Shown here: in pieces, positions 13,816 to 41,184 of the stretch
Numbering within the stretch: position 1 is the first letter of the stretch
How the letters are laid out: every line of letters begins with the position of its first letter
DNA from: Haloferula luteola
GTDB taxonomy: Bacteria > Verrucomicrobiota > Verrucomicrobiia > Verrucomicrobiales > Akkermansiaceae
DNA: 64,000 nt
Assembly: GCF_014201715.1 (NCBI RefSeq)
Contig: NZ_JACHFD010000008.1
Span: 1 to 64,000 of the forward strand
Reading direction: 5' to 3'
Made by a program: the position numbers and the translations under genes
Notes under the pieces: generated by a model
What the model saw: the letters and a program-made list of their open reading frames with translations, nothing else
What the model was told of the DNA's origin: nothing
Database searches by the model: none

Positions 13816-15291
13816 TCAGGGAGTAGGAACGGTCACGGGCAGGAGATTCATCTCGCGGAATTCATCAGTATCAGGAGCCTGCAATTCGCGAGTTTCCGGG
13901 TCCCAGCGATAGGGCTGATCGAAGATGGGGTCGTTCGGTAGCGGTTCGCCACGGAGGAGGGCCCAGGCCGCTTGATGGAGTGCGGCAGCGGATTGAGCAC
14001 GGGCCATCCCTTTTCTCCAAGTTTCGATCCCGAGGAAAAATAGGGAGGCTATCTGGTTGCTTGTCGCGGAGAGGTGGGAGAAGTCGGGAGGTGGCCAACC
14101 GCTCGGCGGTGCACTGGCCCAGTCGTTCATGTGATCAGAACGGAAATTCTCCATGATCTGGAGGGTGGTGAGGGCGTGTGAGTCGAGAAGATCGGCTGGA
14201 TCCGGGGGGTAAAAGGGATCGTCTTGATGGGCCAACATGGGCAGGAGAAACTGTTGAGTGCTCAGATTCCATTCGGAGCGCATCAGCTGAGCAAAGCGAG
14301 AAGGAGGTGCAGGCGGAATGAAGGTGAGGGCCTCCCATCGACGGGGGTCTTTTTCTCCTGGAGGGAGCGCCGGGAAGATTTGCTCAAGGATGTAGCGCTC
14401 GCGTCCCTGATTCAAGAGGATGGCGATCGTTTCATTGAGCAGGGTAGGGGATTCGATGTTTGCAAGATGGTGAGAGATGCCTCGGGCGGCTTGTGCTGAA
14501 CGCAGGGCATCTGCGGAGCGGCCCTCTTCGGCGGCGAGTCTTGCGTCCAAAAGCAGAGCTTGGCAGGCGGAGCGAGCGAAGCGGGCTTCAATGATGAACC
14601 AGCGGTTCCGGTCGATGCCTGCACACGATTGATCGGGCAGCAGTCCGATCGAGCGGATTTCCTGGATCAAGGGGGCGTTTTCCGTGAGCCACAAACGAGC
14701 GACTTCACGGTCCAAGGGTTCCTGGTGGTCGAGGTGGTCGCTGGCCCATTTCGGGAGGTTCCATTCGGCGACTCCTGAGGAGCTTGCAGCGGCCCGACGC
14801 TCCTGGAGTTCGAGCCATTGGAGGAACCCATTGTTTTCCGGCGAAACGTTTCGAAACTTGATCTCGAATTCGGGATAGCGAGCGAGAACCTGTTGGAACC
14901 AAGCTTGGGTCGTTTGTTGGATTTCGGCGGCGCGCGCTGGGTCGAGTGGGGCTCCAGATGTCGTTGCGAGGGAGCCGAAAGTCCGGCGCGGGCGGTGCCA
15001 TGGGTTGGCGTTCCACGACATGAGGTCTTCGTAGCGCTGGGTGAACCAGTAGGAGCAGGTCCAGGTGAGGGGCGGCTTTTTGCGGGCGAGAACGGCTCTG
15101 TCCTCAAGCAGGTTGTGGGTGCGCTCGGCGGTGAAAAGGAGTCGACCCTCTGGGCTGAGTTGGCGCTGTGTCGAGGTTCCGCGGAAAAGGATCCGTGTCA
15201 GAAGGAGCAGCAAGAGGAGAGCAACGGCGAAGGCAACCGCTCCTCGGAGTGCTTTCTGCGGGAGCGATCGGGTCGGGCTTTTCGGGGCCAT
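13816..15291 (-). CDS. Large anchored protein of unknown function
   Basis: The product is 491 residues. It has a short basic N-terminus, one strong membrane helix (about 15-32, rich in Leu) and a long extracytoplasmic part rich in Trp, Pro and helix-forming stretches. No catalytic motif or named domain is recognisable. Several Ala-rich helices around residues 240-270 (ARLAAEEGRSADALRSAQAA) suggest a TPR-like fold. It is last in a four-gene minus-strand run (18622 to 13816), 27 bases after the zinc-ribbon membrane protein, so it probably works with the pseudokinase/FGE-like protein. It appears lineage-restricted. Confidence 0.65.
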   Translation of the reverse strand: MAPKSPTRSLPQKALRGAVAFAVALLLLLLLTRILFRGTSTQRQLSPEGRLLFTAERTHNLLEDRAVLARKKPPLTWTCSYWFTQRYEDLMSWNANPWHRPRRTFGSLATTSGAPLDPARAAEIQQTTQAWFQQVLARYPEFEIKFRNVSPENNGFLQWLELQERRAAASSSGVAEWNLPKWASDHLDHQEPLDREVARLWLTENAPLIQEIRSIGLLPDQSCAGIDRNRWFIIEARFARSACQALLLDARLAAEEGRSADALRSAQAARGISHHLANIESPTLLNETIAILLNQGRERYILEQIFPALPPGEKDPRRWEALTFIPPAPPSRFAQLMRSEWNLSTQQFLLPMLAHQDDPFYPPDPADLLDSHALTTLQIMENFRSDHMNDWASAPPSGWPPPDFSHLSATSNQIASLFFLGIETWRKGMARAQSAAALHQAAWALLRGEPLPNDPIFDQPYRWDPETRELQAPDTDEFREMNLLPVTVPTP

Positions 15292-15318
15292 GAAGGGAGT
15301 GGGAGAGGCAATGAGCGG

Positions 15319-16011
15319 CTAGCCGATGAAGTCACCTTCGACGCGTTGATCGACGATGCGCAGGAATTTTTCGATCTGCTGTTCGATGAAGAGGGCCTGA
15401 TCGGCCTGCTTGATGCCTTTGAGGAGGGTGCGGCGTTGGTTGCCGTGGAAGATGGCCTCGACTTCGTAGCTGGTGGAGGAGCCGTTTTTGCCATGGTGAA
15501 TTTTTTGGCGGCAGAAGATCTGGGTGAGGCTGCCCGTATCGAGTCGCTGGTTGCCGCGCCACGGGATGGGGCCTTGTGTGACTTCGAGCACGCCGCGTCC
15601 TGCACGAAGGGTGGTGGTGTTCAGGAAGGTGGCGAGGATCGCGTAGATCATGGCGAGGCCTGCCGCTGTGTGGATGAGGCCAAATGCGGACATGAACCAC
15701 ATGCCATGGGAGAGGGCAATGGAGTGCCAGACGATGAGAAAGCCATTCCAGAAGGTCGCAAAGGCGACGAGGATCCAGACGGTGGGATGGAACCAGGAGC
15801 GGCGAATGACGAGCTGGCCATTTTCTTCAGAGAGGGACATGCGCGCCGGGAGTTCCACCTGTCCACGGGGGATCGGTTGAGTGACCGCGTTCGGCAGGGC
15901 AAATAGGGAATGGCAGTGGGGGCAGCGGGCCGCGGCGATCTGCGGAGAGATGTCGGTCGGATCAAGGGTGGATCCGCAGTTGGTACACTTGAGTTCGAGA
16001 AGTTGGCTCAT
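15319..16011 (-). CDS. Zinc-ribbon membrane protein
   Basis: The 230-residue protein starts with a zinc ribbon, CTNCGSTLDP at residues 9-18 and CPHCHS about 15 residues later. A linker and two membrane helices (about 77-97 and 108-130) follow, then a soluble C-terminal domain. The start at 16011 is supported by an ATGA overlap with the upstream gene (stop at 16008), which implies translational coupling. A much longer frame upstream in this reading is an antisense shadow of the pseudokinase gene. The general layout recalls PH-like membrane proteins with a zinc-ribbon sensor, but the function is unknown. Confidence 0.75.
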   Translation of the reverse strand: MSQLLELKCTNCGSTLDPTDISPQIAAARCPHCHSLFALPNAVTQPIPRGQVELPARMSLSEENGQLVIRRSWFHPTVWILVAFATFWNGFLIVWHSIALSHGMWFMSAFGLIHTAAGLAMIYAILATFLNTTTLRAGRGVLEVTQGPIPWRGNQRLDTGSLTQIFCRQKIHHGKNGSSTSYEVEAIFHGNQRRTLLKGIKQADQALFIEQQIEKFLRIVDQRVEGDFIG

Positions 16012-17471
16012 GGCGTGTCGGCGGAAAGGACGATGCGGAAGCCGAGGTCGTCGGCGTGGAGGTCCAGGTCGGCCACCCATTGGCGGGTCCAGGCCCCGGA
16101 GGAGGGTCGCAGGAAGGAGGCCCCGATGATGATGGGCTGGGCTGGTGCTGCTGGATTGGCGGGATTGATGCCAGGTTCGCGGGTCCACTCTCGCACGGAA
16201 CCCGCCATGCCGTGGAGACCATTGGGGGTGAGGTCGCGAGGCTGGGGATCGGTGACGGGCCCCCAAGGTGCGGGCAGCAGGGTGGAAGGGGACTCGACCG
16301 CAGCAAACCACTCCTGCTGGCTAGGGAGACGGCCTCCAGCCCAGCGGGCGTAGGCGGCGGCGTCCCATCCATCGACGTTGACGACGGGGCAGTTCAGGGA
16401 CATCGAGCGGCCTTCCCAGAATCCGTGGCCGCGGGCGGCGGCGAGCATCGCCTCCCAATCTTTGGGGAGGTGGTCGCGTTTGTGGGAAGGTTGGTCTTTG
16501 GGATCGAAAACTTGTCGATCTGCGGGCGGCAAAGCTTCGAGAACGTCGAGGAATTCGAGGTATTCGCCGATGGTGACTTCGCAGGCTCCGAGGCGGTAGG
16601 CTGGGAGAGAGACCGGGTCGCCATCGGGCGTGAGGTAGTCGCCGGCGGGCACCGCCACGGGTCCCGGAACCGGAGGTTCGCTGGGAGTTTGTGGAGAGCG
16701 GGCGGTGGTGGGTTGGCGGCGGGAAAGAGCGAGGCCTCCAAGTCCCAGTAGGGCGGCGAGAGCGATGCCGATCAGCCAGGGAGTCGCATGGGTGCGGGAA
16801 CGGACAGGAGGGGCAACGACGGAGGGGGAGGCGAGAAGTTGGTTTTCGATCTCGATGGCGTAGTTTTGGACCTGGGACCAATCGAGGGGCTGGGAGAGTC
16901 CCTCTCCCCGCATCCAAGCGAGGAGGGTGAGGAGTCGGCCTGCTCCAGGTTGATTTTCGGGGACGATGGTAGGGAGAGCCTCCCCGAGGTGGAGGATGTC
17001 GGTCATTTCCCGGTCCGCGGCGGGCAGGCCGGCGCAGGCGAGGTTCTCGAGCCGGACACTGCCGATGCCATCGATGTGGATGGCGGCCGGGGTGAGGGGT
17101 TCCGTGGCCGTACGGGAGAGTTGTTGCATGGCCTCGGCCGTGCGGCGGAGGGCATGGGCAAGGCGAACGGGGGGCAGCTTGATGCGATCGCGCAGGTGCT
17201 CGGCCAGGGAGGCCCCGGTGAGGAATTCGAGGGCGGCGAAGCACTGGGTATCGTCGCTAACGGCTTCGAAAACCGAGGCGATGAGGGGATGGTCGACGGC
17301 GGCCTTGGCGCGGACTTGTTCGAGAAAGGCGAGGCGAAGGGAAAGGTCGTGTAGTTCGACGATGAGGGTCTTGCGGCTGACGGAGGTCTGCTCGGCGAGC
17401 CAAGTGGTTTGAGAGGCGTCCGAGGCGAGGGATTGAAGCAGGCGGTAGTCGCCCAACTGGCGGTTTTCCAT
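16008..17471 (-). CDS. Pseudokinase fused to a formylglycine-generating-enzyme-like domain
   Basis: The 487-residue protein begins like a bacterial Ser/Thr kinase (LGDYRLLQSLASD, residues about 6-20). The kinase landmarks are lost: the VAIK lysine position reads LIVEL, and neither HRD nor DFG is present around residues 125-150. A membrane helix (about 228-248) follows. The extracytoplasmic part (about 270-487) is a sulfatase-modifying-factor/FGE domain with EVTIGEYLEFL, CPVVNVDGWDAAAYARWAGGRLP and NGLHGMAGSVREWT. The active-site cysteines of true FGEs are not seen. This suggests a signalling or scaffold protein without catalysis. It starts 5 bases after its upstream neighbour and overlaps its downstream neighbour by ATGA. 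Confidence 0.8.
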   Translation of the reverse strand: MENRQLGDYRLLQSLASDASQTTWLAEQTSVSRKTLIVELHDLSLRLAFLEQVRAKAAVDHPLIASVFEAVSDDTQCFAALEFLTGASLAEHLRDRIKLPPVRLAHALRRTAEAMQQLSRTATEPLTPAAIHIDGIGSVRLENLACAGLPAADREMTDILHLGEALPTIVPENQPGAGRLLTLLAWMRGEGLSQPLDWSQVQNYAIEIENQLLASPSVVAPPVRSRTHATPWLIGIALAALLGLGGLALSRRQPTTARSPQTPSEPPVPGPVAVPAGDYLTPDGDPVSLPAYRLGACEVTIGEYLEFLDVLEALPPADRQVFDPKDQPSHKRDHLPKDWEAMLAAARGHGFWEGRSMSLNCPVVNVDGWDAAAYARWAGGRLPSQQEWFAAVESPSTLLPAPWGPVTDPQPRDLTPNGLHGMAGSVREWTREPGINPANPAAPAQPIIIGASFLRPSSGAWTRQWVADLDLHADDLGFRIVLSADTP

Positions 17472-17476
17472 GGGAC

Positions 17477-18622
17477 TCAGCGTTCGTCGAAAGGAGGCAA
17501 TTCACCCATGGGATCCACGGGTATTTCGCCGTCGAGGGGGGGCAAGAGGGGAAGATTGGGATCGAAGTCGGGCAATCCATCCGGGTTGAAAAGGAGGGGG
17601 TCTTCGGTTTCCTGGACTCCTTGTTGTCGGTTGAGTTCGGTGGCGAGGTGCCGGGGGGTGGCTTGGGCGTCGACGACTTCGTTTTTGTAGAAGAGTTCGA
17701 CGACCTGGCCGTAGTATTTGCGGCGGCCAAAGAGCTGGATGTCGGAGGCGCTGGGGGTGGGGATGGTGTAGGTGACGCGGAGGGTTTCCTGGCCGCCTAG
17801 CCAATCGAGGTCCCCGCTGACCCACTCGTAGGAGTCTTGAGATTGGTATCCTTTGGGAAGGAGGGTTCCCTGAGTGTCTTTATCGAAGAAGGTGACTTTG
17901 ATGAAGAATTCGTCGCCAGTGGGTTCGGACCCGGGGGCTGCGGAGACGGGAATGGTGAGGATGACGCGTTCCCCATCGGGGTAGGTGTTGTCGGGAAAGG
18001 TGAGGACGCGGCCGATGGAGAGTTTGCCGCGCATGTTCTGGGGAAGGGCGATGCCTTCCTCGAGTTTTTTGGCGGCGAGGGGGTAGAGCGCGCCTGCTTT
18101 GGTGCCGAGATTGAAGACTTTCTGGAAGGCTTCTGCAGCTTTGGGGATCTGGTCGGGATCGGCGGCTGCGAGAGCTTCGTAAACGAGGCCGAGTTCGTAG
18201 AGGGCGCTGGGTTCGTCAGGATCGCGTCCCACGGCTTCCTCAAGTTTGAGGTAGGAGCTGCCGAGATCATCGGCGACGCGAGCGGTGCGGGCTTCGTTGA
18301 CGAGGCGTTCGATAACGGGGTCGGCGATGGGCGGTGCGGAGAGGGGGCGTGGACTCGGGAGTTCCCGGGTGGGGGAGATGGGGTCGGGTGCGGGCGGCAG
18401 AGCGACGAGGGGTTTGGCGGGAGGAAGGGGGCTGGGTTTGGGAGCGATGTTGACGATTTTTGTGACGATTTTTTCTTCGATGCGGACTTCGCGAGCGGCT
18501 TCGACGCGCAGGGCAAGGGCGACGCCTCCGATGAGGAGTTGGGTGAAGGCAATGAGGCCGAGGACCCAGCAGGTGAGTTGGAAGAAGAGGCCTGAGCGGG
18601 CATGGAGGGCGTTTTCTGCCAT
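17477..18622 (-). CDS. Anchored TPR-containing protein
   Basis: The 381-residue product (ATG 18622) has one membrane helix at about residues 12-34 and a proline-rich linker (about 60-95). A helical region of about 100-190 looks like TPR repeats (GSSYLKLEEAVGRDPDEPSALYE in two adjoining segments, AAEAFQKVFNLG). A beta-rich C-terminal domain (about 200-320) follows, and the tail is rich in Pro and acidic residues. The family is not named to my knowledge. It is the first gene of the four-gene unit 18622-13816 and probably carries the promoter in the 116 bases shared with pabB. An envelope-located adaptor role is inferred. Confidence 0.7.
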   Translation of the reverse strand: MAENALHARSGLFFQLTCWVLGLIAFTQLLIGGVALALRVEAAREVRIEEKIVTKIVNIAPKPSPLPPAKPLVALPPAPDPISPTRELPSPRPLSAPPIADPVIERLVNEARTARVADDLGSSYLKLEEAVGRDPDEPSALYELGLVYEALAAADPDQIPKAAEAFQKVFNLGTKAGALYPLAAKKLEEGIALPQNMRGKLSIGRVLTFPDNTYPDGERVILTIPVSAAPGSEPTGDEFFIKVTFFDKDTQGTLLPKGYQSQDSYEWVSGDLDWLGGQETLRVTYTIPTPSASDIQLFGRRKYYGQVVELFYKNEVVDAQATPRHLATELNRQQGVQETEDPLLFNPDGLPDFDPNLPLLPPLDGEIPVDPMGELPPFDER

Positions 18623-18738
18623 GGGGGGGAAAGTAGCGGGAGGGGTGGTGGGCATCCAAGCGCCAAGTTATGGGGAGGAAGGGGGCATTTCGTGATTTTC
18701 GAGATGGGCAAATTTGTCACGCAAGTTACGGGTGCGTT

Positions 18739-20010
18739 GTGAGTTCGCCTGACTTGCGACGACGTTTGGATTTGGAGGGGCTGTCTCCTTTGGAGGTGGC
18801 GGCCCGGTTGGGTCATTTGCCGGGCAGGGTGTGGCTGGATTCAGCGGGGAATTTCCCAGCGGATGAGGGGTGGCCGGTGTCGTTGGTGGCCGCGGATCCG
18901 GTGGAGGTGCTGAAGGGGTCGATTTTTGATCGGGAGGATCGGGCGCGGTTGGAACGGGAGTTGGAGAAAGGGAAGTGCGGCCCGGCGCGCGATTGGGGAT
19001 TTCCCGCAGGGGGGCTGTGTGGCTGGATTGACTACGAGGGGGAGTTTGTGTTCGGGGTGTACCCACGGATGCTGGTGCATTCGGAGCGTGGAGGCTGGAT
19101 GGATGTGGGAGGTCTGGCGGATGAGTTGGGCGAGGTGACGGAGGCGAAGCGACCGTGGGTCGGTGCGGTGAAGGGGTTGGAGTCGCGGGAGTGCTTTGTT
19201 GGGTCGGTGAGGCGTGTTTTGGAGTGGATTGCGGCGGGGGACATTTATCAGGTGAATGTGGCGCAGGGGTTTGAGGCAGAGGTGAGTGGGGGTTCGTTGT
19301 TCGGGCTTTATGAGGAGTTGAGGGCGGTGTCGCCTGCACCGATGGCGGGATGGCTGGAGTTGGATGGGAAGGAGGTGCTGTCGTCTTCTCCTGAGACGTT
19401 TTTGAGGATTTCTGGAAGAGGTGTGGAGACGCGGCCGATCAAGGGGACGCGGCCACGTTTTGCCGATGCGACGGAGGATCGGCGTTCGGCGTATGAGCTG
19501 CAGACATCAGCGAAGGAGATCGCGGAGTTGGTGATGATCACGGATTTGCTGCGCAATGATCTCGGCCGAGTGTGCGAGTTCGGATCGGTGGAGGTGGCGG
19601 AGATGCTTCGCCTTGAGACCTTGGCGCAGGTCCACCATTTGGTGTCGGTGGTGCGGGGACGGTTGCGGTCCGATGTGAGCGGGGTGGAAGCGGTGGCCGA
19701 GTGTTTCCCCGGGGGCAGCATCACGGGGGCGCCGAAGAAACGGGCCATGGAGATTATCCGCGAGTTGGAGGGGGCGCCGCGGGGGATTTATTGCGGGTCG
19801 ATCGGATGCTTCGGCTTCGATGGGGAGAGCCGTTTCAATATTGCGATCCGAACGATGGTGCGCGAGGGGTCGCGACTTCGTTTCCACGCCGGTGCGGGCA
19901 TTGTGGCGGACTCCGACCCGGAAAAGGAGTATGAGGAAACGCTCCACAAGGCAGAGGGGATCCGCCTGGCGTTGAAGGCGTTTAGCGCTGGGCGCGATTC
20001 GGATCTTTGA
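18739..20010 (+). CDS. pabB: Aminodeoxychorismate synthase component I
   Basis: The enzyme converts chorismate plus ammonia to 4-amino-4-deoxychorismate for folate synthesis. It belongs to the chorismate-utilising family: DIYQVNVAQGF, PIKGTRPR, ELVMITDLLRNDLGRV, FPGGSITGAPKKRAMEII and AGAGIVADSDPEKEYEET are all present. PIKGT (rather than PIAGT) points to PabB and not TrpE, because that lysine is the PabB nucleophile. A GTG at 18739 gives 423 residues and a family-like N-terminus; an ATG at 18670 would add 23 unlikely residues. No pabA or pabC is adjacent. The 3' end overlaps the convergent gene by 29 bases. Confidence 0.9.
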   Translation: MSSPDLRRRLDLEGLSPLEVAARLGHLPGRVWLDSAGNFPADEGWPVSLVAADPVEVLKGSIFDREDRARLERELEKGKCGPARDWGFPAGGLCGWIDYEGEFVFGVYPRMLVHSERGGWMDVGGLADELGEVTEAKRPWVGAVKGLESRECFVGSVRRVLEWIAAGDIYQVNVAQGFEAEVSGGSLFGLYEELRAVSPAPMAGWLELDGKEVLSSSPETFLRISGRGVETRPIKGTRPRFADATEDRRSAYELQTSAKEIAELVMITDLLRNDLGRVCEFGSVEVAEMLRLETLAQVHHLVSVVRGRLRSDVSGVEAVAECFPGGSITGAPKKRAMEIIRELEGAPRGIYCGSIGCFGFDGESRFNIAIRTMVREGSRLRFHAGAGIVADSDPEKEYEETLHKAEGIRLALKAFSAGRDSDL

Positions 20011-23327: not shown

Positions 23328-23593
23328 TTCGCGAGGCTTGCGGTCCGGGTGAATCCAAGGAAGTTCGGAGAGTGGAGTCGAAAACCCAGGACGATCTCGT
23401 GTGCAGCGACTGCGGCGGCCCGGCCGAATGGGTGCTGGGCGATGGAGGGATGTGCGAAACTTGCTATCACGCGCGCTCCGCCTGTTGTGCAGGGGACGAT
23501 GGCAAGGATTCCGAGGAAGATGAAGGTGGGGCGAGGTGCCGCCTCAGGGACTCGTCAGCTCGGTGGGAGGGTCTTCAGCGGGAGGGGCTGTAG
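23324..23593 (+). CDS. Small zinc-ribbon protein
   Basis: The 89-residue frame contains CSDCGG (residues 27-32) and CETCYHARSACC (44-55), a paired-cysteine pattern able to bind zinc. Its ATG overlaps the GH43 stop (ATGA). The first ~25 and last ~30 residues look less constrained, and the 3' end overlaps the convergent TPR gene by 50 bases. The core looks real because the Cys pairs are well spaced with a short loop (PAEWVLGDGGM). Function is unknown; a small nucleic-acid- or protein-binding role is only a guess. Confidence 0.5.
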   Translation: MIREACGPGESKEVRRVESKTQDDLVCSDCGGPAEWVLGDGGMCETCYHARSACCAGDDGKDSEEDEGGARCRLRDSSARWEGLQREGL

Positions 23594-25823
23594 GGGTGTC
23601 GGAATCCGAGGGTTCTTCTTCGGACGCCTGAGTTTCGGGGCCAGGGAGGGATCCGATTTTCTTTTCGAGTTCAGGATTGGGAGTCGCCCCGTTTTGTAGG
23701 GACTTTCCGTACGCCTCGGCGGCGTCAAGTTTGCGACCGAGGCGCTGCAGGAGGATGGCCAGATTGTAGTGGGCTTCGGCGTTGGTGGGATCGCAAGAGG
23801 TCGCCATTTTGTAGGCGTCTTCGGCCCCGGCGAGGTCGCCGCTTTGGAAGCGGGCATTGCCGAGGAGGAGGTGGGACTCCGCATGGGTGGGAGCGAGGTC
23901 GACGGCGCGTTGAAGCTCGACGACGGCTTCGGGATGATTGCCCAATTGGCTCATCAGGTAGCCGAGCATGCGATGAGCGTAGGGGTTTTTCGGGTCGAGC
24001 TCAGTGGCGCGCCGGAAGACCTCGGCGGCAGCGGCGGGTTCGTTGAGTTGGTTTTGAACCAGGCCGAGTTTGCACATCGCGGCGACATCCCCCGGATTGC
24101 GATCGATCATGATTTCGAAGGCTTCGCGGGCGGCGAAGAGGCGGCCGCTTTTGTAGGCGCGGATGCCTGCTGCTTCGTAGGGCTGGAGTTCGCGGGTGAG
24201 GTCGGCGAGGCTGCGTTCGACCTCGGATCGGGGGCGGGCGTAGGGGGAGATGATGACACCATCGACTTCCTGACCTTCGATGACCCGGAGTTCTTCGGCG
24301 GTGAGGTTCAGTTCGGATCCTTGAAAAATGTCCAGAGCGCGTTGGATTTTTTCGTCTTTCTCAGCGGTTTCTCCCAGAGACCCCATGAGGAGGTCTTTGA
24401 TTTCTCCGCGTTTCTTTTGGATCTTCAACTGGCGTTCCAAAATGCCGCGGACCATTTCGGCCTCATCCGAGGAAACCGAATGCTCCGTGACGGAGCTGGC
24501 TTCCCCGCGCAGACGGCTTTGGAGTTGGTTGAGGCGCTGTTGTTGTTCCTGATTCTCGCGGCGATATTCCTGAATGCGGAGCTTTGAGATGGCGAGATCG
24601 CGAAGTGCCTCGAGCAGGTCCTCTTTGGAGGCATCACTGTCTTCCTGGAGGGCATCGTAGCGTTTTTTCGTTTCGCGCAGCTCGCGGTCGAGGGCGAGGT
24701 TCTGATCGATGACGGCTTCGAGTTGGCCGGATTTGTTGAGGTTGAGCAATGCGGCCATCTGATCGCGCTCGCGGAGGAGTTCGTTGCGCTCTTCTTGCAC
24801 CTCTTGATAGGAGGCCCGGAGTTCGCCGAGCTCCGACTGGAGGTTGTCGATGGTTTTGTGGGCGGAGGCGAGTTGCTCGTCCTTCTTCTTGATGGTGTCT
24901 TGGAGGGCTTGGATCTGCTTGAGTTGACCGGCGACGACCTGATTGGCGGCGGCGCGTTCGGTTTCCAGATCGCGTTGGGTATCGGCGAGCTCCTGTTTGA
25001 TCTGGTCGATTTGTCCGAGGAGCCGAGCGCGTTCGTTCTGGAGGGCACTGACCTGGCCGCGGGCTTCTTCGGTTTCCTTGCGGGAGGCATCGAGGGCGCG
25101 GCCCATGACGGCTTTTTCGGCCTCCAGCTTGTCGATGCGGCGGGCGAGAGCATCGAGTTCCCCTTGCATGGGAGCTTCCGCGGTCTGGCGGCGGAGGCGA
25201 TCGAGTTCGGCGCGGGCACTTTGAAGTTCGGCGACCGCGCGGTCACGTTGGCGATCGGTCTGCCCGTTGGCGGGACCTTGAGTGATCTGGGCTTTCAGGG
25301 TTTCCACCTGAGATTGGAGATCGCGAATGCGCCGGGATGCGAGGGTTTCGACGGGTTGAGTTGAAGGAATGGGCGCGACGGGCAAGCCGCTGTCGAGGAG
25401 GCTGCCATCCGGGTCGGGAGTTCCTCCGCGGAGGACGCCACCCTCGAGTTCGCTGCGCACCTGTTCGTCTTTCTCCTGCTCACGGCGGGCATCCGGCAGC
25501 ACTTCGGCGATGGCATCGGAGACCTTGCGACGGCGGCTCTCCACCATGTCTTTTTTCCATTCAGGAAAGGACTGAGAGATGGTGTCGAAAAGCTGGGTGG
25601 CACGACGAAGTTTCTCCAGCGCTTCGCTGGCCTTGCCTTGTTTGGAAAGCTTTTCGGCGTCGTTGCAGAGCAACCACCCTTGGAAGTAGACGTCCGATGG
25701 GTCGAATGCGGCCGGGGCCGTTGCGGAGGGCCCGGATTGCTGGGCCATCACCGGTGCGAGCCCCACCGCGAACGTGACGAACGCGAGAGAAGCAGCAATC
25801 GGGCGATGAATTCTCCGGGGCAT
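23544..25823 (-). CDS. Secreted coiled-coil and TPR protein
   Basis: The 759-residue protein has a signal peptide ending near AQQSG (about residue 28). A helical N-terminal domain leads to a long coiled coil (about 165-450, rich in Glu, Arg, Gln and Leu) and then TPR repeats (about 560-715, including AICKLGLVQNQLNEPAAAA-like and AEAHYNLAILLQRLG segments). The tail is acidic and Pro-rich. It is probably periplasmic or envelope-bound and acts as a scaffold; no enzyme motif is present. It is monocistronic here, convergent with the zinc-ribbon gene. Confidence 0.8.
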   Translation of the reverse strand: MPRRIHRPIAASLAFVTFAVGLAPVMAQQSGPSATAPAAFDPSDVYFQGWLLCNDAEKLSKQGKASEALEKLRRATQLFDTISQSFPEWKKDMVESRRRKVSDAIAEVLPDARREQEKDEQVRSELEGGVLRGGTPDPDGSLLDSGLPVAPIPSTQPVETLASRRIRDLQSQVETLKAQITQGPANGQTDRQRDRAVAELQSARAELDRLRRQTAEAPMQGELDALARRIDKLEAEKAVMGRALDASRKETEEARGQVSALQNERARLLGQIDQIKQELADTQRDLETERAAANQVVAGQLKQIQALQDTIKKKDEQLASAHKTIDNLQSELGELRASYQEVQEERNELLRERDQMAALLNLNKSGQLEAVIDQNLALDRELRETKKRYDALQEDSDASKEDLLEALRDLAISKLRIQEYRRENQEQQQRLNQLQSRLRGEASSVTEHSVSSDEAEMVRGILERQLKIQKKRGEIKDLLMGSLGETAEKDEKIQRALDIFQGSELNLTAEELRVIEGQEVDGVIISPYARPRSEVERSLADLTRELQPYEAAGIRAYKSGRLFAAREAFEIMIDRNPGDVAAMCKLGLVQNQLNEPAAAAEVFRRATELDPKNPYAHRMLGYLMSQLGNHPEAVVELQRAVDLAPTHAESHLLLGNARFQSGDLAGAEDAYKMATSCDPTNAEAHYNLAILLQRLGRKLDAAEAYGKSLQNGATPNPELEKKIGSLPGPETQASEEEPSDSDTPTAPPAEDPPTELTSP

Positions 25824-29266: not shown

Positions 29267-29812
29267 ATGGCCATGAGTGGAAAAACTGTCAGTCCTTTGA
29301 CGACCGAGGAGATCCTTCCGGTGGTGTACGAGGAGCTCCGCCGCATTGCGACGGACCGGCTCCGGCACGAGAGTCGGCAATTCACTTTGCAGCCGACCGC
29401 TTTGGTGCATGAAGCGTGGTTGAGGCTGTCGGGAGGGCAGAAGGTGACGTGGGAGAATCGGGCCCACTTTTTTGGAGCCGCCGCCCAGGCGATGCGGCGA
29501 ATTTTGGTGGATCGGGCACGTGAGAAGTCGGCCGCCAAGCGCCAGGTGATCGCACCGGAAGAGGCCCTCGATGCTGGATTTCCTGGTGGGAATGATCACG
29601 TTCTGTTGATTCACGAATGTTTGATTCAATTGGAGCAAAGCGATCCGATTTCCGCCCGAATCGTTCTGCTTAAGTTCTATGCGGGCTTGGGAAATCGCGA
29701 AATTGCCGATCTGGTGGGACGCAGCGTGAGGTCTGTGGAGCGTCAGTGGATGTTCGCCCGGGCGAAGCTTTTTCAGATGATTCAGGCGGAGCGATCGAAC
29801 TCTTCGTCTTGA
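29267..29812 (+). CDS. ECF-type RNA polymerase sigma factor, module 1
   Basis: The 181-residue protein is an ECF sigma factor of the type common in Planctomycetota, Acidobacteriota and Verrucomicrobiota (Pfam ECF / TIGR02999-like). Region 2 is seen in VYEELRRIATDRLRHE and ALVHEAWLRLSG, followed by the WENRAHFFGAAAQAMRRILVD block. Region 4 ends with LGNREIADLVGRSVRSVERQW, the recognition helix-turn-helix. It is 5 bases upstream of a transmembrane Ser/Thr kinase gene and has no anti-sigma gene, so phosphorylation-based control by the kinase is likely in line with known sigma/kinase pairs. Confidence 0.88.
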   Translation: MAMSGKTVSPLTTEEILPVVYEELRRIATDRLRHESRQFTLQPTALVHEAWLRLSGGQKVTWENRAHFFGAAAQAMRRILVDRAREKSAAKRQVIAPEEALDAGFPGGNDHVLLIHECLIQLEQSDPISARIVLLKFYAGLGNREIADLVGRSVRSVERQWMFARAKLFQMIQAERSNSSS

Positions 29813-29817
29813 GCGCC

Positions 29818-32046
29818 ATGAAGGATGATGAACTCGGGCGCGAGGTGCAGAACGCGATCCTTGAGGTGGCCTTGTCGATGGACGAGCCGGAGTTGCTCGA
29901 TCATTTTCTGCGCCAAGCATTGGGCGACCATCCCGAGGCGATGGAGGAGATGCGGGGATTGGTGGAGGCGAGCCGTCGTTCGATGGGGTTTTTTCTGGAG
30001 GCGGCTGACCAACGTCGCGATCTAGCGGCCGAGTGTTGTGCGGAGCAGGAGCCGTTTTCGACGCTCAGCGTGACGACCGACGAGCAGGTTGGAGAGGTGT
30101 TGGGAGACTATTGTTTGGTGGCCCGGCTCGGCGAAGGGAGTGGAGGGGTGATTTACGAAGCGGAGCAAGGTCAACCGATCCAGCGCCGAGTCGCGGTGAA
30201 GATCCTGCGGGCGGGAATGGATACCGAGCTGATGATTGCTCGGTTTGAGTCAGAGCGCCAAGCCCTGGCGTTGATGGATCACCCGCATATTTCTCGGGTG
30301 CTGGATGCTGGAGCGACACCCGCTGGCCGACCGTATTTTGTGATGGAGTTGGTGGAGGGGGAGAAGATCACCCTTTATTGCGACCGACATCAGCTTGGAT
30401 TGGTTGAGCGCCTGCAGTTGTTCGTTGAGGTGTGTCGAGCGATTGAGCATGCGCACCAAAAGGGGATCATCCACCGGGATATCAAACCGTCGAATATTCT
30501 AGTGGCCACTCACGAGGGAAGGCCGGTGCCCAAGGTCATTGACTTCGGGATCGCGAAGATGGTGCATCCTCTGGGCGAAGGGCGAAAGGTGATCACTTTT
30601 CATGACGAGCTTTTCGGCACTCCAGCGTACATGAGTCCGGAGCAGATTGACCTCGCAGGATTGGACGTGGATACCCGCAGTGACATCTACAGCCTAGGTA
30701 TTCTGCTTCATGAGTTGCTGACGGGAGTGACACCATTGGATGAGGATGAGATGGCGAATCTGGGAGTTTCGGCGCTGCGAGATCGAGTGCTGAATGCAGC
30801 CATGCAGTTGCCTTCGCGACGGTGTGCGATGATGCCGCCGGACAGAGCCACCGAGATGGCGCGGGTGCGTGGTTGCGACGTGCGTGCATGGATCGCGGCA
30901 GTGGCGGGTGATCTCGACGGCATTGTGATGAAGGCGACGGAGCGGTCCCGGCATCATCGCTATCAAACGGTTGATGCTTTGGCGGTGGACATCGGTCGCC
31001 ATCTGCAGGATTTGCCGGTTTCCGCGCGTGCTCCGAGTCGTGCGTATTTGCTCGGGAAGTTTGTCCGAAGGAACCGCGCTGCCTGTGCGGTGGCGGCAGG
31101 GGTCGCGGGGTTGCTGATCACGGGGCTCGTCACGACGACGACGCTCTACAAGCGGGAGCGTCGAGCTCTCGATGAGCAGTCGAGGTTGCGGATGGAGGCA
31201 CAAGCGGCGAGGAAAGAGGAGGAGCGATTGCGCTGGCAGGCGGATGCTCGATCGAATCTGGCGCGGGTGGCCTTTTTGCTGAACCAGAATCGGGTGGAGG
31301 AGGCTGATGAACTGCGCCAGCGGTATCCGATCACGGCGATTGAGCCCTCATTGGAGGCCGCGGCGGTGTTTCGTGCACTGGGAGACTGGAATGCTTCCCA
31401 CGACCGGTGGGATCAGGCGCTGGAGTGTTTTCGGCTGCTCATTCAGGCGAATCGTTTGGAGCAGTCGACACGGATCCTGGAGGGTTCCGATTTGATGGCG
31501 TGTGGGATTGCGTTGTTGTATCGACACCAGCCGGATTTCCCGGAGTTTCGGGAAGAGATTCTCGATCGCTACCTCCCTGCGACCACGCAGGTGGGGGCGG
31601 AGCATTTGCTAAAGGTGTGCTGTGCGGCACCGGCAGGTCCGGAAATGTTGGCGCGCTTGGAGACGTCGGTTGAGAGTTTGGGTGATCCTGCGGATGCCGT
31701 TTTTCCAGGTTGGGCCGCGTTGTCTTTGGGCCTCTATCATCTTCGTGGGGATGATCTGAACGCCGCGTCGAGGGTTGCCTGGGAAGGTCTTGCTTTGAAG
31801 GATGCGAAGTCGTCTTGCACCGCCGCCTTGCACTGTGTGCTCGCAATGACGGAAGCCCGCCGCGAGCGATCAAAGATTGCCCGCAGTCACTGGGAGGAGG
31901 CGCGGAAGCTGGCCCAGGATTGCGGGAAGGATGATTTCATTGAAGGGGAACCGATTGAGGCCGTTTGGTTCGATTGGGCCTTGGTGGCCTATTTGCTCGA
32001 TGAAGCGTCCCACACTTTGGAGAGAGTGGGCGCTTCCACGAAGTGA
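29818..32046 (+). CDS. Transmembrane Ser/Thr protein kinase, module 1
   Basis: The 742-residue protein (ATG 29818) has a helical N-terminal segment (1-90) and a Hanks-type kinase domain (about 97-400). Intact catalytic parts are the glycine loop LGEGSGGV, Lys128 in VAVKIL, HRDIKPSN (Asp221), DFGIAK (Asp242) and GTPAYMSPEQ. A membrane helix at about 421-443 is followed by a coiled-coil/TPR-like extracytoplasmic region of about 300 residues that may sense or recruit a partner. It is translationally close to the sigma gene (5-base gap) and convergent with the GH31 gene 18 bases away. Its kinase domain is strongly similar to that of module 2. Confidence 0.9.
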   Translation: MKDDELGREVQNAILEVALSMDEPELLDHFLRQALGDHPEAMEEMRGLVEASRRSMGFFLEAADQRRDLAAECCAEQEPFSTLSVTTDEQVGEVLGDYCLVARLGEGSGGVIYEAEQGQPIQRRVAVKILRAGMDTELMIARFESERQALALMDHPHISRVLDAGATPAGRPYFVMELVEGEKITLYCDRHQLGLVERLQLFVEVCRAIEHAHQKGIIHRDIKPSNILVATHEGRPVPKVIDFGIAKMVHPLGEGRKVITFHDELFGTPAYMSPEQIDLAGLDVDTRSDIYSLGILLHELLTGVTPLDEDEMANLGVSALRDRVLNAAMQLPSRRCAMMPPDRATEMARVRGCDVRAWIAAVAGDLDGIVMKATERSRHHRYQTVDALAVDIGRHLQDLPVSARAPSRAYLLGKFVRRNRAACAVAAGVAGLLITGLVTTTTLYKRERRALDEQSRLRMEAQAARKEEERLRWQADARSNLARVAFLLNQNRVEEADELRQRYPITAIEPSLEAAAVFRALGDWNASHDRWDQALECFRLLIQANRLEQSTRILEGSDLMACGIALLYRHQPDFPEFREEILDRYLPATTQVGAEHLLKVCCAAPAGPEMLARLETSVESLGDPADAVFPGWAALSLGLYHLRGDDLNAASRVAWEGLALKDAKSSCTAALHCVLAMTEARRERSKIARSHWEEARKLAQDCGKDDFIEGEPIEAVWFDWALVAYLLDEASHTLERVGASTK

Positions 32047-38187: not shown

Positions 38188-38223
38188 ACCCAGCGGCGTG
38201 CTTTCTGCTTGCGCTCCACGGCC

Positions 38224-41184
38224 ATGAGCGAACGACGGACCCGTTCCCACCGGATGTCTGCAGCGCAAGCAGCAGGCCTTCTGGACCTTGGGGCGTGGGT
38301 GGAGACGGAATTTGAGGAACAAGCTGGCGACGTGGTGGGCCGCTATCGCCTTGTGGAGATGTTGGGGGAAGGGGCTTTCGGGGCTGTATGGAGGGCTGAG
38401 CAATGGGAACCGATCCAGCGGGAGGTGGCGCTCAAGCGAATCAAGCGAGGAATGGACGGGCGGGAAGTGATGGCTCGGTTTTCGGTGGAAAGCCAGGCCC
38501 TGGCACGGATGGATCATCCGAATATTGCCGCGGTTTTCGATGCCGCAGCAGACGATGAGGGTTTGCCTTATTTCGCAATGGAATGGGTGAAGGGCGAGCC
38601 ATTGACGGAGTACTGCGATGCTCGGAATTTGACGATTCGCCAGCGATTGGAGATCTTCATTCCTGTGTGCCTGGCGGTGCAACATGCGCACCAGAAGGCG
38701 ATTCTCCATCGTGACCTGAAGCCGTCGAATTTGTTAGTGACGGAGGTCGATGGTCGACCCGTGCCCAAGGTGATCGACTTTGGAATCGCCAAGGCTTTGG
38801 GAGGGGAAGCGGCCGGGGACGGTCTGCAGACGCGGGTTGGCGCGATTTTGGGAACGCTAGCTTACATGAGCCCGGAGCAGGCGGGGAGCACCCGGGATGT
38901 GGATACTCGGAGTGATGTGTATTCGCTGGGGGTGATTCTCTTTGAGCTGATGTGCGGTCGGACGCCGGATGTTTTTGATTCGGACATTCCCTATGATGGG
39001 GCTCTTTTGCAGATTCGGAATGGGGTGATTCCGAAGCCGAGTCAGTGTTTGCTGGACGATGAAGTGGCAGGAGCACGGGGTGAGGACTTGGTGGGAATTC
39101 AGCGACGATTGCGGGGGGATTTGGACCGCATCGTGTTGAAGGCGCTCGCGAAAGATCGGCGTGATCGATATGCGACGGCGAGTTCCCTGGCTGGGGATCT
39201 GGGCCGCTATTTGCGCGGTGACCCGGTGAGTGCAGTTCCTCCGAGCTGGGGATATCAGGTGTCCAAGTTTGCCCTTCGGCATCGAGCCGGGGTGATGGCG
39301 ACGGTCCTGGTGACAGTGGCCTTGCTGGCGGGAACGGGAGTGAGTCTCTGGCAGGCGTCGGAGGCGCGGAGGTCGCGGGTGCAATCGGAAGCAAATCTGG
39401 TGAAGGCTCGTGAGGCTGTGGAGTTGTTCCTGAATCGGATGACCCTGGAGCCCCGTCTTCAGGAAGCGGATTTTTCCGATTTCAGACGTGCCCTGTTGGA
39501 GTCGGCCTTGCCATTTTACGAGGAGTTGGCGGCGCAAAGTCGCGCGGACTTGCCCTTCACCGCGGGAAACGCCGGAGCATTCAATCAATTGGGATTGATC
39601 TACTATGAATTGGGTCAGGTGACGGAGGCCCTGGGGGCCTATGAACAGGCAGAAGCGCTTGCCGCTTCCTTGGTGAAGGAGGAGCCGGAGGATCTCGATG
39701 CGCTGTCGTTGTGGGCGAGCATTGAGAACAATCGGGCAGCGGTGTGGGAGAGGGCGCATGATGACCTGGGCGCGAGGAATGGTCAGCGGAGGGCTTTGGG
39801 AATCGTACGACGAATTCTCGCCAAAGATCCGGAGCGGGTGGCTGATCGGAAGATCTTCATTACGCTGTTGGTGAATCATGGGATTCTGCTGGCGCACGAT
39901 CCCAGTGAGCTGGGGGGCGCGCAGAAGCTGCTTGAGGAGGCCCTTGGGGAGGCGGAGAAACTGGAGAGGGAACGACCCGAGGAAGAGGAAGGCTACGTGG
40001 CCTATGCTCAGTCGAACTTGGCGAAAGTACTGCATTCGCGCGGCGACCCGGCTGCCGTTGAAGGATATCAGCGGGCGATTTCTCTGCAGCGGCACCGATG
40101 CGAATCGCATCCGAACGAAGTATTTCAGCGGCATTTGTTGGCAACCTCTCTCCTGAACCTTGGGTACATTTTTACATATGGGGGCCGGCCGACGGAGGCG
40201 CTGCCGCTGTTAGAGGAGGCGATCAAAATTCGGGAGGAGCTGGCTTTGCAGTTTCCGTCCAATCCAGAGCACCTGTCGTCGGTCGCGACGGGGCGTTGCC
40301 TTGTGGGGATGGACTTGAGGCAGTTGGGGAGAGTGGAGGAGGCGGTGGCGGAGTTGGAGAAAGCGGTGGCGCTTCAGCACGCCTTGGTGGAGGCCTTTCC
40401 TGAAGACGCCCGATACCGATCGCGGGAGGGTTCTGTATGGGACCAGCTGGCGGCGTTTCAGCGGGAGCGGGGTGAGGTGGATGCGGCGGTGGTGAGCTAT
40501 CGACGATCGGTGGAATGTCACCGGGAGCAATCGGCGCTGCGACCTGATGACGAGGAGCCAAAGGTCCTGCTGGCGCAGCGCTGGAACGCTTTGGGAAAGA
40601 TGGCTCAGGAAGAGGGCCGAGTGGAGGAGGTGATCGAAGCGGCGGAAGGGCTCGCGAGTTTGCGTCCCGAGCGCTGGCAGGAGCTGATTTCTGGTGTTGA
40701 ATTTCTTGCATGGGTGGCGGGGCAGCAGGGGGAGGGAAGTGTCGAGGTTGCGGAAAGAGCGGTCGCTTTGCTGGGGCAAGCGATCGCGGGAGGCTTTCCC
40801 GGAGTGCCCGAGTTGAAGAGTTCGGAGGCGTGGGTGGCATTGCGTGCAGTTCCGGGATTTGACCAGTTGAGGGAGCGCCCGCCCGGTCCGCCGGACGGGG
40901 CCCCGACCGCTTTTCAATTCGAATATTCCTACGAGGATCCGGGAGCTAGGGACTGGGTGAGGCAGGGTGATCGGTGGCTGGAAACTCAACCCTCGGGAAA
41001 AGTGAATGAGTTTGCAGTGGTGGAGCGTTGCTGCTTGCGGGCGATCTCCGGGACTCATTTGCGCGGAATCACCGAACCGAGGCTGGAAGTGTTTATTCCG
41101 GACAAGGGTGAAAAACCTCAGCTGCAAGTGCGCATGGACGGAGGAGATTGGGCCTTGTTCGCGAACCTTGAGAAAGTGGAGTAG
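38224..41184 (+). CDS. Transmembrane Ser/Thr protein kinase with TPR domain, module 2
   Basis: The 986-residue protein (ATG 38224) has a Hanks kinase domain (about 39-335) with LGEGAFGAV, Lys71 in VALKRI, HRDLKPSN (Asp164), DFGIAK (Asp185) and GTLAYMSPEQ. A membrane helix at about 356-377 leads to a long TPR region (about 430-860) with motifs such as FNQLGLIYYELGQVTEALGAYEQA. A short C-terminal beta domain (about 900-986) ends the protein. All catalytic residues are present. The kinase domain shares long identical stretches with that of module 1 (GRPVPKVIDFGIAK), indicating common ancestry. It probably controls the adjacent sigma factor. Confidence 0.9.
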   Translation: MSERRTRSHRMSAAQAAGLLDLGAWVETEFEEQAGDVVGRYRLVEMLGEGAFGAVWRAEQWEPIQREVALKRIKRGMDGREVMARFSVESQALARMDHPNIAAVFDAAADDEGLPYFAMEWVKGEPLTEYCDARNLTIRQRLEIFIPVCLAVQHAHQKAILHRDLKPSNLLVTEVDGRPVPKVIDFGIAKALGGEAAGDGLQTRVGAILGTLAYMSPEQAGSTRDVDTRSDVYSLGVILFELMCGRTPDVFDSDIPYDGALLQIRNGVIPKPSQCLLDDEVAGARGEDLVGIQRRLRGDLDRIVLKALAKDRRDRYATASSLAGDLGRYLRGDPVSAVPPSWGYQVSKFALRHRAGVMATVLVTVALLAGTGVSLWQASEARRSRVQSEANLVKAREAVELFLNRMTLEPRLQEADFSDFRRALLESALPFYEELAAQSRADLPFTAGNAGAFNQLGLIYYELGQVTEALGAYEQAEALAASLVKEEPEDLDALSLWASIENNRAAVWERAHDDLGARNGQRRALGIVRRILAKDPERVADRKIFITLLVNHGILLAHDPSELGGAQKLLEEALGEAEKLERERPEEEEGYVAYAQSNLAKVLHSRGDPAAVEGYQRAISLQRHRCESHPNEVFQRHLLATSLLNLGYIFTYGGRPTEALPLLEEAIKIREELALQFPSNPEHLSSVATGRCLVGMDLRQLGRVEEAVAELEKAVALQHALVEAFPEDARYRSREGSVWDQLAAFQRERGEVDAAVVSYRRSVECHREQSALRPDDEEPKVLLAQRWNALGKMAQEEGRVEEVIEAAEGLASLRPERWQELISGVEFLAWVAGQQGEGSVEVAERAVALLGQAIAGGFPGVPELKSSEAWVALRAVPGFDQLRERPPGPPDGAPTAFQFEYSYEDPGARDWVRQGDRWLETQPSGKVNEFAVVERCCLRAISGTHLRGITEPRLEVFIPDKGEKPQLQVRMDGGDWALFANLEKVE

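Follow-up and report, generated by a model that had tools for sequence, protein, structure and literature searches.

A predicted pseudokinase fused to a non-catalytic FGE fold is paired with a TPR protein across Verrucomicrobiales, in an ancestral gene set with a peptidoglycan amidase

Two adjacent genes of Haloferula luteola, here called A and B, form a conserved unit that is core across Verrucomicrobiales. The product of B combines, as judged from its residues, a pseudokinase, a predicted membrane helix and a formylglycine-generating enzyme (FGE) fold devoid of catalytic cysteines, while that of A is a predicted anchored TPR protein. A comparison of gene neighbourhoods places both genes in an ancestral set with the order A, B, E, Amidase_3, NnrD, in which E encodes a predicted secreted protein and Amidase_3 a peptidoglycan amidase. 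The Verrucomicrobiota are bacteria with an unusual cell biology, and to our knowledge few of their envelope regulators have been characterised; this module supplies named, testable genes.

The window, that is, the whole stretch of 64,000 nucleotides that was analysed, carries a minus-strand set of four genes with spacings of 5, -4 and 27 bases (5 nt separate A from B, B and C share 4 nt, and 27 nt separate C from D), where the earlier note had placed it. The features of the locus are as follows.

18670..20010, plus strand: divergent chorismate-binding (PabB-like) gene, upstream neighbour of A (Pfam, 9.5e-90)
17477..18655, minus strand: gene A, predicted periplasmic anchored TPR and beta-sandwich protein (ORF list; homologue in 111 of 116 relatives)
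18494..18595, minus strand: N-terminal membrane helix of A, residues 10-43 (AlphaFold2 helix, hydrophobic sequence)
18056..18319, minus strand: TPR domain of A, residues 102-189 (AlphaFold2 model, VIA-align)
17657..18022, minus strand: C-terminal beta-sandwich of A, residues 201-322, containing the invariant E279 and G305 (AlphaFold2)
16008..17471, minus strand: gene B, predicted pseudokinase, membrane helix and non-catalytic FGE fold, 487 aa (ORF, Pfam, AlphaFold2, structure comparison)
16833..17468, minus strand: predicted pseudokinase domain of B, residues 2-213 (AlphaFold2, structure match, profile alignment)
16719..16778, minus strand: predicted membrane helix of B, residues 232-251 (AlphaFold2 helix; hydrophobic stretch in 137/137 relatives)
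16014..16676, minus strand: FGE-fold domain of B, residues 266-486 (Pfam, structure match, alignment)
15319..16011, minus strand: gene C, zinc-ribbon-like membrane protein, 230 aa (ORF, sequence), a lineage-specific neighbour outside the conserved unit
13816..15291, minus strand: gene D, anchored protein of no known family, 491 aa (ORF), a lineage-specific neighbour outside the conserved unit

Gene A yields a protein of 392 aa from the ATG at 18655 or of 381 aa from an inner ATG at 18622, and its AlphaFold2 model has a pLDDT of 85.7. In that model the TPR part, aligned with the TPR of AspH and with LpoP (VIA-align Z of about 13 over 92-97 residues), resembles LpoP, an activator of peptidoglycan synthase, among many other TPR proteins, TPR similarity being generic. 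The beta-domain, which that comparison barely covers, had no match among the VIA-align matches listed, and homology of this domain to E was rejected (hhalign probability 1.2). The product of C begins with a zinc-ribbon-like CxxC...CxxC pattern and all its Pfam matches fall under the cut-off, and no family match was found for D in Pfam and a further search. The family of D is small and has no name; certain relatives (e.g., G010 and G016) carry several members of it, in other contexts. The window also encodes, on the strand of A and a few kb upstream of it, a large protein of coiled-coil and TPR type whose TPR matches are strong (23544-25823, minus strand), possibly a further envelope protein. 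A phage origin of the locus was rejected, since none of the four genes had a PHROGs match and no phage record was found for A; a defence system was likewise rejected, there being just weak kinase-domain matches to the PD-T4-6 and mad6 models. A plasmid search with B as the query rendered only FGE-domain matches from Streptomyces.

In Pfam, B matches FGE-sulfatase (PF03781) at 2.4e-15 and Pkinase below the threshold (0.013). Its AlphaFold2 model, built with 47 sequences, has a mean pLDDT of 90.8 and comprises a kinase fold (residues 2-213), a helix (232-251) and an FGE fold (266-486). The kinase part superimposes on PknB (Z 18.9, rmsd 3.0 over 202 residues), and a profile of this half made from 39 sequences matched PknA, StkP and PknB at 4e-23 to 1e-19, PknA being the match at 4e-23. 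The FGE part superimposes on EgtB (Z 21.3, rmsd 2.7, 208 residues) and on human FGE (Z 19.2, rmsd 2.9, 188 residues).

Alignment of the kinase-half profile to Mycobacterium tuberculosis PknA puts V38 at the VAIK lysine, P125 at the HRD aspartate and N143 at the DFG aspartate. Among 137 relatives with both halves of B, the DFG position holds Asn in all 137 and Asp in none, the VAIK lysine is kept in three and the HRD aspartate in two (lost in 135), while the Gly-rich loop (GxGxxG) was found neither in the window nor in any of the 137. The positions of human FGE Cys336 and Cys341 correspond to R455 and A460 of B, and no cysteine was counted at either active-site column in the 137 relatives; one locus (L139) has a cysteine close to these columns, at neither position. 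The loss of VAIK lysine, HRD and DFG from the kinase half and of active-site cysteines from the FGE half, both claimed by the earlier note, is thereby upheld, and the possibility that the catalytic residues of an active kinase were simply displaced, which that note had named as refuting it, was examined and rejected by residue-level alignment of both halves. Both halves are maintained by purifying selection, as indicated by the median dN/dS over 70 close pairs (kinase half 0.12, FGE half 0.16); these low values and the invariant residues rejected a decaying pseudogene domain. On this sequence evidence B is classed as a predicted pseudokinase, with a kinase fold, no catalytic residues and a loss conserved under selection: it shares its folds with active Hanks-type kinases and with formylglycine-generating enzymes, and lacks the catalytic residues of the former and the catalytic cysteines of the latter.

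The description of B as two dead enzymes fused across a membrane holds for the double loss, while the crossing of the membrane rests on a predicted helix. A topology with the kinase half inside and the FGE half outside is predicted from the fold types and from the lack of a signal peptide ahead of the kinase half; the K/R counts flanking the helix are nearly even in the relatives (3.2 before, 2.8 after), so that the positive-inside rule leaves this topology unproven.

Conservation was surveyed in 116 genomes, comprising the window's genome (G000; 95.5% complete, 84 contigs) and those of its genus, family and order, with relatives by named record including Haloferula, Luteolibacter, Persicirhabdus, Rubritalea and Roseibacillus; counts refer to genomes, not to independent events, and certain apparent separations of genes may be contig ends (e.g., in G023). 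Gene A was found in 111 of these genomes and B was matched in 109, or in 105 after setting aside weak matches to other FGE- or kinase-like proteins. The two genes are neighbours in 90 of the 103 genomes that have both, and in 17 of the 18 of the window's genus. The occurrence of the domains of B and of the A-B adjacency in many genera indicates that neither is due to chance. On the other hand, C occurs in 19 of the 116 genomes and is a neighbour of B in one of the 115 other genomes (G015), while D occurs in 17 and adjoins B in none. This rarity indicates that the four-gene order is local, so that the module of four genes proposed by the earlier note was not borne out; the search for synteny in other genomes that it called for rendered a conserved A-B neighbourhood and not the order A-B-C-D. 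A PabB-like family lies near A in 23 loci, mainly in divergent orientation, and is probably a bystander.

Clustering of the neighbours of A over 80 loci rendered a recurrent order, A - B - E - Amidase_3 - NnrD, preceded by a PabB-like gene in divergent orientation. E, which has a secretion-like N-terminus and no Pfam family above the cut-off, is present in 115 of the 116 relatives and in 205 of 288 genomes of a sample of the phylum. The run A-B-E is intact in 54 genomes, and Amidase_3 follows E in 43 of the 67 E loci with enough sequence, the window's own genome among them. In seven genomes devoid of B (G022, G031, G034, G044, G048, G057 and G080) A lies directly beside E, which indicates that the intervening B has been lost, in several genera; such lineages, missing B alone, constitute natural experiments. 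In the window's genome the ancestral set is split but complete: E (244027-244875 of contig C2) is followed by Amidase_3 and NnrD, and these three genes are intact at C2 244027-247100 (locus L195, 4010-7100), on a contig other than that of A and B. Linkage of B to E was found in none of the 18 genomes of the window's genus; with A-B and E-amidase unlinked there, a tie to the amidase exists only in the ancestral arrangement.

In other families of the order, 19 of 20 loci have a B with an additional receiver-like domain at its N-terminus, which gives sub-threshold Response_reg matches (best 9e-4), and the phosphoacceptor aspartate of this domain is replaced wherever it can be aligned. This domain is lost in the window's family. 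In a locus from another order of the class (L095), where A-B-E is also present, the phosphoacceptor aspartate is retained. In another relative from a different order (L091, 6866-7540) a separate receiver-DUF4388 gene lies between A and E, in the place of B, which suggests that this signalling slot is replaceable.

With a confidence a little short of even, we propose that B is a transmembrane docking or relay protein without catalysis, acting with A and E on the cell-wall amidase. B would act by binding, its cytosolic pseudokinase (which in other families follows the degenerate receiver domain) serving as a protein-interaction or state-sensing module and its outward FGE fold as a docking hub, like PorK of the type IX secretion system (T9SS), if the orientation is as predicted. 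A, anchored beside B, would partner it from the periplasm in a putative complex of A, B and E, and these proteins, with E secreted, may control where and when the linked N-acetylmuramoyl-L-alanine amidase, their presumed output, cuts peptidoglycan. It can also be the case that a co-directional cluster is co-expressed without a shared function, and the metabolic repair enzyme NnrD is in this same set. Some residual binding of nucleotide by the pseudokinase is also conceivable. The idea of a sensor or assembly scaffold put forward by the earlier note is plausible in view of the dead folds and the conserved neighbourhood, the partners seen being A, E and the amidase instead of C and D. A more far-reaching version, in which an order-wide relay made of dead folds only (pseudo-receiver, pseudokinase and pseudo-FGE) would control the peptidoglycan amidase together with the TPR partner and E, is conceivable but doubtful; a scaffold role in bacteria is already known for dead kinases as well as for dead FGE folds, and such a relay, if true, would be a cell-wall control pathway of the Verrucomicrobiota not described before.

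It is possible, if rather unlikely, that B is instead a non-catalytic relay for an active Ser/Thr kinase, its pseudokinase being a substrate or allosteric partner as in MviN-PknB and the output being general envelope signalling rather than the amidase. The genome has 16 Pkinase loci over the cut-off, two of them in the window, and one FHA locus, and both the fold match of B to Rv3910/MviN and the degenerate receiver domain of its relatives would fit such a role. However, kinase genes were found near only eight of the clustered loci, with variable position and strand and no one gene consistently linked, so that a linked partner kinase of A-B was rejected. The two ORFs of the window at 29746-32046 and 38209-41184, both on the plus strand, contain kinase domains that, at 142 and 137 bits, lie far above the cut-off of Pfam, unlike that of B.

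We consider it unlikely that the FGE fold serves to bind ligands on the outside, in the C-type-lectin-like, DGR-target or TagR style, and to signal surface contact or damage by way of the membrane helix. FGE/CLec folds of DGR targets do bind ligands (PMC10907252), TagQ-TagR are envelope sensors upstream of the kinase PpkA (PMC6657622), and TvpA was matched by the FGE-half profile. Against this, the C-terminal region of B is conserved rather than hypervariable, and among the recurrent neighbours there was neither a recognised reverse transcriptase or other DGR gene nor a T6SS locus with PpkA and TagQST. A single functional operon of A, B, C and D, for which the tight spacing, the overlap of B with C and the B-C adjacency shared with G015 can be adduced, is very improbable given the scarcity of C and D and the absence of D beside B elsewhere, and as a conserved unit it was rejected by the 116-genome survey. 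The least probable reading is a hidden activity of B, with the kinase half binding nucleotide or transferring phosphate in an unorthodox way, or the FGE half carrying out some unusual chemistry: the invariance of N143 implies that the pocket may be under constraint, but Gly-rich loop, VAIK lysine, HRD aspartate and FGE-position cysteines are absent from all or nearly all of the relatives.

In comparing the proposed docking or relay protein with known systems, no published account of the doubly dead fusion, or of its link to A, E or the amidase, was found in the open-licence papers searched; the earlier note had named no described system with its four-gene order. Nor did we find a report of a dead kinase and a dead FGE fused to each other, core across an order and ancestrally tied to a wall hydrolase. 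EgtB and human FGE share the fold of residues 266-486; B differs from human FGE in the absence of the catalytic cysteines, and from EgtB in having a kinase fold as its N-terminal half and no DinB half (no DinB domain, which carries the iron-binding His triad of EgtB, was among the matches listed at E 10). TagR has an FGE-like domain. In the T6SS of Pseudomonas it acts as a periplasmic sensor ahead of a Ser/Thr kinase that spans the membrane (PMC6657622); in the TagQ/TagR-PpkA system that kinase is active and encoded by a separate gene of the T6SS locus, this not being so for B. PorK/GldK and GldJ of type IX secretion have, like B, an FGE fold without the two cysteines, and PorK, which was matched by the FGE-half profile at 3e-18, serves the envelope as a structural hub for docking (PMC12421860). 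PorK forms the PorKN ring at the outer membrane, whereas B combines its FGE fold with a membrane helix and a pseudokinase in one chain. The recurrent neighbours within about 6 kb included no T9SS genes (PorN, PorL, PorM).

In MviN (Rv3910) of Mycobacterium tuberculosis the pseudokinase is joined to a membrane domain of flippase type. That pseudokinase was among the top Foldseek matches of B (E about 2e-10, 18% identity), and both are bacterial membrane proteins with a dead Hanks-type kinase domain, the one in MviN having a role in wall synthesis through the binding of FhaA (PMC3601408); B differs in having a single predicted helix and an FGE fold, with no flippase match in Pfam. Kinase-FGE fusions are already known, as in Pkn1 of Chlamydia trachomatis, a member of the same superphylum with an N-terminal kinase and a C-terminal FGE-sulfatase domain in one protein (PMC3581485). 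B shares this domain order with Pkn1. However, Pkn1 has been reported to phosphorylate a partner, while B, lacking all the catalytic residues, is predicted to be inactive, and B is further set apart by its membrane helix, by its pairing with A and by the ancestral association with E and the amidase.
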